This document shows positions 27,307 to 31,040 of a stretch of DNA of 33,590 nt, in pieces (the stretch's first letter is position 1; every line of letters starts with the position of its first letter). A model generated the notes under the pieces. The model did not search any database, was not told where the DNA came from, and worked only from the letters and a program-made list of their open reading frames with translations. Origin of the DNA: Saprospiraceae bacterium (GTDB lineage Bacteria; Bacteroidota; Bacteroidia; Chitinophagales; Saprospiraceae); NCBI GenBank assembly GCA_020630525.1, contig JAHDBF010000019.1, positions 1-33,590 on the forward strand. The letters are read 5' to 3'. A program made the translations under genes and the position numbers.

Positions 27307-27711
27307 TTACTTAAAATCCAAACTAACCACCTGTTCAAGATCAAGATGTAATGACCTTCCTACCGGACAAGCTGCCGCTGCTCTTTCGAGAATTTTGATT
27401 TGCTTTGAGCTATACTCGTTTTTAGGCATATCTATATGTACGATTATTCGCTTAATGCGTCTTGGCTTATCTGCCATCACTTTTGTTACCGTTCCATAAG
27501 CACCTTTTATATCAATATTATGCTTATTGGCAGTAATGCCCATTATCGAAAAAATACAACTTGCCAAAGCGGTAGCTACCAAGTCTGTTGGAGAAAAAGC
27601 TTCTCCTTTTCCATTATTGTCGATTGGCGCATCGGTGATCAATTGATTTCCAGATCTGATGTGGGTGCCTATGGTTCTGAGATCACCTTTGTATACAACT
27701 ATTGAAGTCAT
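27307..27711 (-). CDS. OsmC-family protein (putative organic-hydroperoxide reductase-like)
   Basis: 134 residues of the OsmC/YhfA type. SPTDLVATALASC (40-52) supplies the first redox cysteine, C52, in the long central helix, and AAACPVGRSLH the second, C115. Paired cysteines like these reduce peroxides in characterised OsmC/Ohr proteins; the YhfA-like branch is less well understood, so the substrate is open. The start codon overlaps the phoH stop by 4 bases (ATGA on the minus strand), so it is cotranscribed with phoH and probably translationally coupled. It ends 5 bases from the convergent HTH gene; no terminator is visible between them. Confidence 0.85.
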   Translation of the reverse strand: MTSIVVYKGDLRTIGTHIRSGNQLITDAPIDNNGKGEAFSPTDLVATALASCIFSIMGITANKHNIDIKGAYGTVTKVMADKPRRIKRIIVHIDMPKNEYSSKQIKILERAAAACPVGRSLHLDLEQVVSLDFK

Positions 27712-28706
27712 TCTTCTTCGTTTTTATGTTTTCTATTATTGTCATTTTTATAGCTATTCTGCTCGTACCGCTCTATTATTTTCTTTACTAGTCGATGTCT
27801 TACGACGTCATCCGATGTCAAATTCATCATCCCAATACCTTCTACTCCTCTTAAAATTTTCAAGGCACTATACAGTCCTGATCGTTGGTTTCTTGGCAAA
27901 TCTACTTGAGACATATCACCAGTAATGATACATTTTGCAGTCGGTCCCAATCTCGTCAAAAACATCTTTATCTGCATAGAAGTGGCATTCTGTGCCTCAT
28001 CCAAAATCACAAAAGCATTGTCAAGTGTACGCCCTCTCATAAATGCCAATGGAGCAACTTCAATGATCCGATTAGTCATAAAATAGTTTAACTTATCTGG
28101 CGTGATCATATCATCGAGCGCATCGTATAATGGCCTTAAATATGGGTCAATTTTATCCTTAAGGTCTCCTGGCAAAAACCCTAGATTTTCTCCTGCTTCT
28201 ACAGCTGGTCTTGTCAAAATAATCTTCCTTACCAATCTATTCTTAAGAGCACGCACGCCCAACGCTACGGCAGTATATGTTTTCCCTGTACCCGCTGGAC
28301 CTGTAGCGAAAACAATGTCGTTGTCCTCAACCATCTCCACGAGACGTTTTTGGTTTCTAGTTTTTGCTTTTATTGGTTGACCACTTCGGCCATATAGAAT
28401 AACATTTCCATTTCCAGCAGAGGTAAAAAAATTGGCTTTATCATCTGCTTTATGGTTACCATTGAGCAATTCCTTAATATTTTCTTGGGACAAGCTGTTT
28501 GTACTCTTAAGCAATCGTAGCATAGATTCGATTTTGGCTTTGAGTGCTTGGGTTTGTTTTTTTTCGCCTTTTATCTTTATTATATTACCTCTAGATGTGA
28601 TACTTACTTCAGGAAAAGCATTTTTTAGTAAGTTTATTTTGGAATTTTTCTCACCATAGAACTCCACTGGATCCACTCCGTCAATGCTTAAATTAATTTC
28701 GCTCAA
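27708..28706 (-). CDS. PhoH family P-loop protein (PhoH/YbeZ-like)
   Basis: Cytoplasmic ATPase of the PhoH/YbeZ type, associated in other bacteria with RNA metabolism and the endonuclease YbeY. 332 residues: an N-terminal nucleic-acid-binding-like segment (about 20-66, INLLKNAFPEVSITSRG), a linker, then the PhoH core with Walker A GPAGTGKT (136-143), LTRPAVEAGENLGFLPGD (164-181), Walker B FVILDEAQN (232-240), TGDMSQVDLP (262-271) and VRHRLV (302-307). The C-terminus is a short basic tail. It is divergent from the DUF62 gene, with 235 bases between. That gap is AT-rich with only a 5-bp hairpin (CGAAA/TTTCG near 28905) and no clear -7 box. Confidence 0.93.
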   Translation of the reverse strand: MSEINLSIDGVDPVEFYGEKNSKINLLKNAFPEVSITSRGNIIKIKGEKKQTQALKAKIESMLRLLKSTNSLSQENIKELLNGNHKADDKANFFTSAGNGNVILYGRSGQPIKAKTRNQKRLVEMVEDNDIVFATGPAGTGKTYTAVALGVRALKNRLVRKIILTRPAVEAGENLGFLPGDLKDKIDPYLRPLYDALDDMITPDKLNYFMTNRIIEVAPLAFMRGRTLDNAFVILDEAQNATSMQIKMFLTRLGPTAKCIITGDMSQVDLPRNQRSGLYSALKILRGVEGIGMMNLTSDDVVRHRLVKKIIERYEQNSYKNDNNRKHKNEEE

Positions 28707-28941: not shown

Positions 28942-29712
28942 ATGCCCATAATTACGTTAACTACAGACTTAGGATATACCGATTTTTATGTCGCTAAGTT
29001 GAAGTCCGCTATATTAAAAAGAGTGAGAGAGGTTACCTTCTTAGATGTCTCACACGCTATTGCTTCGCATGACATTCAGCAAGCTGCTTTTTCATTGATG
29101 AATATTTGGAATGAATTGCCAGAAGGCAGTATTCACCTTATTAGTGTATATAACCATTATTCTTCCAGAAATCAATATGTCGTTTTTGAACATCAAGGAC
29201 ATTACTTTGTCGGTCCTAACAATGGTGTATTTAGCTTACTGCATGAAAACATTGCGGCTAAACCTGCGACCATAATAGATATGCCATCAGGTGCTAAGAG
29301 TTTGTTTGATCTATTTGCGCATGGAATAGCGTGTATTTCTACTGGAATTCCTATAAACGAGATTGGTGATACAGAAACAACATTAAACGAGAAACTGAGC
29401 ATACTCCCTGTGCATACTTCTGATGAAATCAGAGCAACCATTATCCATGTGGATCACTTTGGCAATGTTGTATTGAACGTAAAAAAAGAATTTTTTGAAA
29501 AAATAAGACAAGATCGAGCTTTCGAGATATATTTTAAACATTCCGAACCCATCCAAAAAATCAGCCATGGTTACAGCCAAGTTCCTGTCGGAGAAGTTGT
29601 TGCATTATTTAATGTATTGGGCAATATGGAATTGGCAATAAATATGGGAAATGCCAGCTCTATGCTGGACTTATATAAAAACGAAACCATTCAAATTCAC
29701 TTTAAAAATTGA
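28942..29712 (+). CDS. DUF62 / SAM hydroxide adenosyltransferase family protein lacking the usual triad
   Basis: 256 residues with the two-domain fold of SAM hydrolases and SAM halogenases: TTDLGYTDFYVAKLKS (7-22), LDVSHAIASHDIQQAAF (34-50), FVGPNNGVFSLL (89-100), TGIP (134-137) and IIHVDHFGNVVLN (167-179). Typical hydrolases split SAM to adenosine and methionine with an Asp-Arg-His triad in VIDPGVGTERR and TFHGRD. Here the equivalent stretches read SVYNHYSSRNQ (68-78) and KSLFDLF (119-125), so by my alignment all three are replaced (Y70, N77, S120). The reaction is therefore uncertain. It overlaps the next gene by 4 bases (TTGA) and lies in a tight operon with aroB. Confidence 0.85.
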   Translation: MPIITLTTDLGYTDFYVAKLKSAILKRVREVTFLDVSHAIASHDIQQAAFSLMNIWNELPEGSIHLISVYNHYSSRNQYVVFEHQGHYFVGPNNGVFSLLHENIAAKPATIIDMPSGAKSLFDLFAHGIACISTGIPINEIGDTETTLNEKLSILPVHTSDEIRATIIHVDHFGNVVLNVKKEFFEKIRQDRAFEIYFKHSEPIQKISHGYSQVPVGEVVALFNVLGNMELAINMGNASSMLDLYKNETIQIHFKN

Positions 29713-29996
29713 GCATAACAAGAATAGTAAAATTGTGTTTTGAACCAGAGCATCTTGATGCTTTTAAGCAAATATTTGTTGAGAAAAAAGCAAAAATTGA
29801 AGCATTCCAAGGATGTCATTCTGTAATAATGCTACAAGACATTCATGATCCTACCATATGTTTTACTTATAGCCATTGGGACTCAGAAGAGGCATTAAAT
29901 GCCTATAGAAACTCAGATTTTTTTGGCGAAACATGGGCCAGAACAAAGAAATTATTTAGAGATAAACCAGAAGCTTGGTCTGTACAAAATGTATAA
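29709..29996 (+). CDS. Small ABM-fold (antibiotic biosynthesis monooxygenase) protein
   Basis: 95-residue dimeric alpha-beta-barrel type protein: VKLCFEPEHLDAFKQIF (7-23), FQGCHSVIMLQD (33-44), ICFTYSHWDSEEALNAYRNS (50-69) and a C-terminal RDKPEAWSVQNV. Family members include heme-degrading and quinol monooxygenases, but many have no known activity, and no catalytic residue can be assigned here. The start is TTG sharing bases with the stop of the DUF62 gene (TTGA); no other start is available before the conserved first strand. aroB begins 3 bases after its stop. The DUF62-ABM coupling suggests a joint job. Confidence 0.8.
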   Translation: MSITRIVKLCFEPEHLDAFKQIFVEKKAKIEAFQGCHSVIMLQDIHDPTICFTYSHWDSEEALNAYRNSDFFGETWARTKKLFRDKPEAWSVQNV

Positions 29997-29999
29997 CTC

Positions 30000-31040
30000 A
30001 TGCCAATAATCAATAGCAATAATTACGAAGTCTTAGTAGATGAACACATTGATAAACTAAAATCTCTAATCAGCAATTATCAAAAAATTGCAGTCATTGT
30101 TGACGAAAACACCATATCACATTGCTACCCTATTGTCAAAGATCATTTTGGCAATCACGAATTAATAGAAATATCATCAGGAGAAAAAAATAAAAATCTA
30201 GACACTTGCAATTTCATCTGGTCTCAACTCATAGAAAAATCTTTCGATAGAAAAAGTTTAGTAATAAATCTTGGTGGTGGAGTTATCGGAGATATGGGTG
30301 GATTTTGTGCAAGTAGTTATATGCGAGGCATAGATTTTTTGCAAATGCCTACCACATTACTGAGTCAGGTAGATGCTTCAGTGGGCGGGAAACTTGGCGT
30401 AGATTATCAGGGATTAAAAAATATTGTCGGTACGTTTAATAATCCGATAGCAGTATGGATAAATACGGACTTTCTGCACACACTTCCTAAAAAAGAGCTT
30501 ATCAGCGGTTTTGCAGAAATGATAAAGCACAGCTTGATTTCAAGTAAAGATATTTTCTACAAACTGTCCAAAATTGATTTAAACCAAAAAATTGATTGGA
30601 CAACACTTGTCCATGAATCTGTTGGCATCAAAAATAAAGTAGTCTTAGAAGATCCTTTTGAAAAAGGATTAAGAAAAATATTGAATTTTGGGCATAGTCT
30701 TGGTCATGCTATTGAGACCGAAAGTCTTAAAACAGATGATCCACTTCCACATGGATACGCCATAGCAATCGGTATGATCTTAGAAAGCAATATTGCAGTA
30801 GAAAAGGGATTATTGTCATTGGAAGAATCCAATCAGATATCAGAATTTATCACAAAAATCTATGGAAGATTCGATCTAAGTGACTACGATATGGATGCCA
30901 TTATTTCTAATCTTAAACACGATAAGAAAAATGAAGATACTAAGTTCCTATTCTCTTTAGTCGGTCCAATCGGCCATTGTAATTACAACGTAGAAGTAAA
31001 GCTTTCAGAAATCGAAAATGCCTTTAATAGCTATCAGTAA
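30000..31040 (+). CDS. aroB: 3-dehydroquinate synthase
   Basis: Converts DAHP to 3-dehydroquinate, the second step of the shikimate pathway; it uses NAD and a divalent metal. The 346-residue length is normal. The NAD-binding LGGGVIGDMGGF (91-102), the substrate/cofactor segment MPTTLLSQVDASVGGK (116-131) and the metal ligands E173 (FAEMIKH), H232 (NFGHSLGHAIE) and H251 (LPHGYAIAIGM) are all present. It is the last gene of the operon, and its product ultimately feeds chorismate to the pabB/pabC enzymes encoded at the left end. It converges on the OmpA-like gene with only 10 bases between stops. Confidence 0.96.
   Translation: MPIINSNNYEVLVDEHIDKLKSLISNYQKIAVIVDENTISHCYPIVKDHFGNHELIEISSGEKNKNLDTCNFIWSQLIEKSFDRKSLVINLGGGVIGDMGGFCASSYMRGIDFLQMPTTLLSQVDASVGGKLGVDYQGLKNIVGTFNNPIAVWINTDFLHTLPKKELISGFAEMIKHSLISSKDIFYKLSKIDLNQKIDWTTLVHESVGIKNKVVLEDPFEKGLRKILNFGHSLGHAIETESLKTDDPLPHGYAIAIGMILESNIAVEKGLLSLEESNQISEFITKIYGRFDLSDYDMDAIISNLKHDKKNEDTKFLFSLVGPIGHCNYNVEVKLSEIENAFNSYQ

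Follow-up and report, generated by a model that had tools for sequence, protein, structure and literature searches.

The window, a stretch of 33,590 nucleotides from a Saprospiraceae bacterium (contig JAHDBF010000019.1), encodes a DUF62 protein that retains the two-domain fold of the SAM hydrolases and is devoid of their Asp-Arg-His triad. Judging from the sequences, the protein belongs to a triad-less clade that most likely descends, by a single event near the base of the window's class, from a DUF62 SAM hydrolase of the ordinary kind; the class is here taken as Bacteroidia as GTDB defines it. With a probability of about one half, the clade would represent non-hydrolytic, adenosyl-ligand-binding descendants of the hydrolases that work with an ABM-fold protein encoded next to them.

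The DUF62 protein of the window comprises an N-terminal PF01887 domain (residues 4-142, E 1.6e-32, 112.7 bits vs. a gathering threshold of 26.3) and a C-terminal PF20257 domain (residues 166-250, E 9.8e-24, 83.9 bits vs. 25.5), and its gene gives the single PF01887 match in the genome (Table 1). As stated in the original prediction, the VDPGVG-R and FHGRD motifs are missing. The triad positions were analyzed in 64 realignments, combining eight intact DUF62 proteins, four MAFFT modes and the presence or absence of ten clade members. Absence of the triad was confirmed, and the proposed counterparts of D68 and R75 of the Pyrococcus enzyme PH0463, Y70 and N77, were aligned in all 64; the third counterpart, S120 for H127, was found in 23, and the position fell into a gap in 41. 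Recovery of the triad from other residues was rejected, as none of the 64 sequence realignments placed Asp, Arg and His elsewhere.

Table 1. Features of the window
Feature	Position	Strand	Basis
phoH (PhoH-like ATPase), head-to-head with the DUF62 gene, 235 nt between	27708..28706	-	gene order
Triad-less DUF62 protein (SAM_HAT_N + SAM_HAT_C), 256 aa	28942..29712	+	Pfam domains, alignment, model, fold matches
D9 codon (= fluorinase D16, ribose hydroxyls; 177/177)	28966..28968	+	register from coordinates, role PMC1282579 (part available)
Y70 codon = catalytic D68 (PH0463) position	29149..29151	+	alignment
N77 codon = catalytic R75 position; most variable column of the clade, entropy rank 256/256	29170..29172	+	alignment
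S120 codon = catalytic H127 position in 23/64 realignments, gap in 41	29299..29301	+	alignment
D171-N175 codons, DHFGN (= fluorinase D210 and N215 by motif; both 177/177)	29452..29466	+	roles PMC1282579 (part available)
ABM-fold protein, TTG start; 4-nt overlap with the DUF62 stop	29709..29996	+	Pfam, model, gene order
aroB (3-dehydroquinate synthase), directly after the ABM gene	30000..31040	+	gene order

The AF2 model of the DUF62 protein (pLDDT 94.4) bears out the expectation that the fold motifs are kept. Structural comparisons of the model with solved DUF62 proteins, chlorinases and fluorinases showed near-full-length matches with Z scores of 22.7-26.5, given as aligned ranges rather than residue pairs. 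The DUF62 SAM hydrolases (PH0463 and MJ1651) and the solved relatives 2zbu from Thermotoga and 2cw5 from Thermus share the same two domains and the near-full-length fold in these comparisons, with an r.m.s.d. of 2.5-3.0, and differ from the window protein in possessing the triad, VDPGVG and FHGRD. A Foldseek search returned 40 matches at E <= 0.001, all of them DUF62, chlorinase or fluorinase structures (TM over the query of 0.69-0.89). The predicted structure thus preserves the two-domain DUF62 fold, and by the sequence alignments the triad has been lost. The NCBIfam SAM hydrolase equivalog scores of 90.2 vs. 470 and 85.0 vs. 350 bits come from models that look narrow and are weak evidence.

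A protein search found PF01887-type proteins in 51 of 60 near relatives; in the class they are present in 218 of 247 genomes, and in a phylum sample in 110 of 148. The DUF62 set contained 212 proteins, which after removal of nine recognised copies left 177 triad-less proteins, 25 intact ones and, set apart, the protein of locus L260; further duplicates may persist in this set between the whole-genome loci and the named loci, the latter being the 80 loci that best matched the alignment of the clade itself and so picked for likeness. Among the 177 triad-less Bacteroidota proteins, R75 is kept in nine and H127 in one, whereas Asp occupies position 68 in 62. The predicted loss of the triad holds clade-wide, with a single origin on the tree, for Arg and His, but not throughout for Asp. 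Because the triad itself served to define a protein as intact, its conservation in the 26 intact rows carries no weight; independent evidence comes from other classes of the phylum, where 17 of the 18 DUF62 proteins sampled have all three residues. Beyond these 18, five further loci from other classes (L263, L264, L266, L267 and L270) carry both motifs, and a sixth, L265, has DPGVG-R, with HGRD absent from its open frame, which runs up to the end of the contig. Intact DUF62 also occurs in nine (L032-L040) among 30 loci listed for the class, and in one of these nine genomes, G299, the only PF01887 match is an intact protein, which means that not all DUF62-bearing genomes of the class have the triad-less form.

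In an 85-row tree, built with the triad columns included, the triad-less proteins form one clade (support 100/95) nested among intact proteins, and the triad state changes once in 100% of 200 bootstrap trees. Beside it stand nine proteins from other classes, eight intact and that of L260 (support 98/91). A quick tree calculated without both motif loops still showed one change, with a support of 95. Recent or local decay in the window's genome was rejected, as the one clade spans the class. The earliest branch, f22 (L103, L105 and L113), keeps VDP (as VDPG, VDPD and VDPE) and has FRSA, FMAA or FRAA in place of FHGR; from these motifs, the f22 sequences look like an intermediate stage of decay. 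Intact and triad-less copies occur together in seven genomes (G264, G143, G060, G066, G260, G172 and G406), which suggests that the two forms are not redundant. Three of these genomes (G264, G143 and G060) hold the f22 pairs L102/L103, L104/L105 and L112/L113, each an intact DUF62 gene plus an early-branching triad-less copy adjoining phoH. The L260 protein (L260:6018-6833, +), from another class, retains Asp and Arg, has Ala at the His position (DRA) and VDPQV, and lacks FHGRD; on its sequence it is a separate, partial triad loss. L268 is the same gene as L260 and is not among the 18.

D9, G95, D171 and N175 are invariant in all 177 triad-less proteins, K21, D35, H65 and N179 are present in 99%, and D14, N94 and A238 in 93%, 97% and 92%, respectively. 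Over the 256 window columns, the R75 column has the highest entropy, and columns 70 and 120 rank 155 and 131. The part available of a study by Kozbial and Mushegian (PMC1282579) describes, for fluorinase, contacts of Asp16 with the ribose hydroxyls, of Asp21 and Asp210 with the methionine amino group, of Asn215 and Ala279 with adenine and of Ser269/Arg270 with the methionine carboxylate. For the N-terminal part, the register (window n = fluorinase n+7) was taken from the coordinates of the structural comparison, and the equivalence of the C-terminal contacts was set by motif. On that reading, the ribose, adenine and amino-group contacts, which the clade would share with the DUF62 SAM hydrolases, appear to be kept, water activation erased and the carboxylate contact relaxed. 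The methionine-carboxylate position (V225 column) is Ser in 96% of the intact proteins vs. 49% of the clade, so the ligand may not be SAM. Further residues are conserved in the clade and mostly absent from intact proteins (H65 99%, F185 98%, R192 90%, F194 93%, F223 98% and F254 94%), for which reason the clade seems to be under its own constraint and not simply decaying. Four of these, H65, F185, R192 and F223, together with a head-to-head phoH gene, set the clade apart from the DUF62 SAM hydrolases.

The gene following that of the DUF62 protein encodes an ABM protein (PF03992, 45.5 bits vs. a gathering threshold of 23.1; model pLDDT 97.2). The ABM proteins of these loci align as one group, in which PF03992 is found in 28 of 28 members and Foldseek TM values reach 0.95 to solved ABM proteins. 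The ABM protein of the window has the typical fold of LsrG, YgiN, IsdI and others, whereas its group gives weak sequence matches to the solved proteins and has invariant residues of its own (R5, V7, F19, T53, S55, W57, L63, Y66, R67, F72 and W76 in 40 rows). In strict neighbour counts, limited to loci with enough flank, the ABM gene directly follows the triad-less DUF62 gene in 63 of 97 whole-genome and 22 of 74 named loci and does not adjoin it in 34 and 52, respectively; behind intact DUF62 it was counted in 0 of 8 loci of the class and 2 of 17 from other classes. The ABM gene, named in the original prediction as translationally coupled and a possible partner, is a recurrent neighbour, but it does not always follow, and its presence does not depend on the loss of the triad. 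For the two genes of the window we infer translational coupling from their 4-nt overlap, which is also the commonest arrangement in 64 whole-genome pairs with a Met start (32 pairs).

Co-occurrence of the two proteins, obtained by subtraction of genome lists, showed ABM (E <= 1e-8) in 181 of 218 DUF62-positive vs. 12 of 29 DUF62-negative genomes of the class, uncorrected for kinship; seven of these 12 belong to one family (f63) and have weaker ABM scores. In two other families intact DUF62 has ABM directly behind it: this holds for each of the four sampled f88 genomes and for the f96 genome G359 (DPGVG-R, FHGRD), and the other sampled f96 genome with DUF62, G317, gave no ABM match. An origin of the ABM partner together with the triad loss was rejected because ABM adjoins intact DUF62 in f88 and f96, and the ABM link is for the same reason probably older than the triad loss. 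Where further genomes of other classes have ABM (e.g. G307, G313 and G425), the ABM gene listed lies on another contig or kilobases off. In the f88 loci with intact DUF62 and ABM, L257:4799-5581 (-) and L259:7539-8297 (+), the next gene is alike by eye, and the gene after ABM in L257 encodes a class I SAM methyltransferase according to Pfam.

Two open reading frames fuse ABM to AroB, L187:8013-9404 (+) and L262:4777-6264 (-), with lengths of 464 and 496 aa between stops, a hint that the ABM protein and 3-dehydroquinate synthase are functionally tied in these relatives. The genome of the second fusion, G032, is of the same family as the window and has no PF01887 match; its phoH gene faces the ABM-AroB fusion directly. 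G032 apparently represents a natural loss of DUF62 from the phoH/DUF62/ABM trio, and with phoH facing ABM-AroB kept, DUF62 would be dispensable there.

phoH, absent from the original prediction, is a more constant neighbour of triad-less DUF62 than ABM. The two genes stand head-to-head in 84 of 98 whole-genome loci and in 62 of the 72 named ones, and none of 25 intact copies shows this arrangement with phoH (class 0/8, other classes 0/17). Both phoH and ABM adjoin the triad-less gene in 54 of 94 whole-genome and 19 of 70 named loci, and neither does in 7 and 8, respectively. An earlier, looser neighbour clustering had picked up antisense shadow ORFs and histidine kinases, included one phoH call at L260 and is superseded by the strict count. 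The phoH-like neighbours of intact DUF62 from other classes in that clustering (two f88 loci, L250) were rejected as histidine-kinase-like ORFs, and that of the intact L108 as a distant same-strand PhoH-type gene that is not head-to-head. A search with a promoter consensus gave only weak matches between phoH and DUF62, under relaxed settings. The part available of a study of Escherichia coli (PMC5101352) describes an interaction between YbeZ, a PhoH-type protein, and YbeY, a nuclease of rRNA maturation, the function of YbeZ itself being unknown. A link of DUF62 to RNA maturation via phoH is speculation resting on gene order.

One old loss, the variable Arg column, the invariant ligand residues, the newly conserved residues and the recurrent neighbours are together best fitted by a non-hydrolytic adenosyl binder acting with ABM. 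The ancestor of the clade, a DUF62 SAM hydrolase, would have lost Arg and His, and Asp in about two thirds of the members, while retaining the fold and the residues gripping the ribose, adenine and amino group of SAM. The protein, presumably a trimer as in its relatives, would hold SAM, or an adenosyl ligand close to it, between its subunits and leave it unhydrolysed, and could serve as the ligand-binding or sensing component alongside the co-translated ABM protein. Binding of SAM or an analogue, non-hydrolysis and action through ABM are all three inferred. An extension in which a Bacteroidia pseudo-enzyme acts as a sensor, reporting the SAM or adenosyl level via ABM while phoH ties the signal to PhoH-linked RNA or ribosome maturation, is a long shot. 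Of the functions offered in the original prediction, binding of SAM or adenosine only and another reaction both fit these data, whereas another nucleophile has found no positive support, the old site being variable.

Another reaction is a tentative alternative: the protein could be an enzyme that acts on an adenosyl substrate in the kept pocket, its chemistry coming from clade residues (e.g. H65, R192, F185, F194 and F223), the substrate or ABM. The clade-specific conserved residues, mostly missing in intact relatives, agree with this, as do the fluorinases and chlorinases, which carry out other chemistry in the same fold without the triad (PMC10491745 and PMC3999930, parts available); however, columns 70, 77 and 120 vary, and a conserved residue that could replace the nucleophile was not located there. 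The same kept fold and putative ligand residues, with Asp at position 68 in 62 of the 177 proteins, would suit a remaining SAM hydrolase, perhaps slow or selective for a SAM epimer, in which water is positioned without Arg and His. We regard this as unlikely because all three residues are kept in 17 of 18 proteins from other classes, the triad is held to activate water (PMC10491745, part available), the clade's Arg column is now its most variable and a separate intact copy persists in seven genomes. A ligand-free structural or regulatory scaffold, with the synteny arising from a promoter region shared with phoH, is similarly improbable; divergent promoters alone can keep neighbours together and the carboxylate contact is relaxed, but it is difficult to see why D9, D171 and N175 should be invariant if no ligand were bound. 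Least credible is an enzyme resembling the SAM-dependent halogenases. Of these, fluorinase FlA and chlorinase SalL share the fold (Z 24.7-25.7) and likewise have no hydrolase triad (PMC10491745, part available), and in the coordinate register Y70 of the window falls at the position of fluorinase Y77. However, Tyr is found there in just 11 of the 177 clade members, the window protein is ~20% identical to FlA and SalL and scores 31.4 bits against the fluorinase family TIGR04507, far below the cut-off of 400, and the occurrence of PF01887 in 218 of 247 genomes of the class is in our judgement an unlikely spread for a halogenase.

The part available of a review (PMC10491745) describes the His-Arg-Asp triad as strictly conserved in DUF62 and as activating water. 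The usual DUF62 protein of the sampled Bacteroidota lacks it, and annotation of these genes as SAM hydrolases or halogenases from homology is therefore probably wrong. A study of 2025 (PMC12120602, part available) calls into doubt (R,S)-SAM hydrolysis as the physiological function even of an intact DUF62 protein. Our literature search, which reached few subscription papers and in part only the best-ranked matches, yielded no account of triad-less Bacteroidota DUF62, and the form is likely previously undescribed. A clade with a putative pocket kept, the water-activating residues lost and recurrent partners offers a clean test of the purpose of the pocket.

Other genes also lie around these loci. 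On the minus strand of the window, an OsmC-like gene (27307-27711) overlaps the end of phoH, and a match to it lies near DUF62 in 6 of 112 loci, the window included, and in 8 of 80 named loci. A SAICAR synthetase gene is next after phoH in L222 (3822-4883, -). Two neighbour clusters (46 and 41 loci), located on the phoH strand at medians of 2.2 and 2.6 kb upstream of DUF62, are labelled STAS-domain and tRNase Z-like from the Pfam matches of one member each (L091, where both lie on the other side of DUF62).
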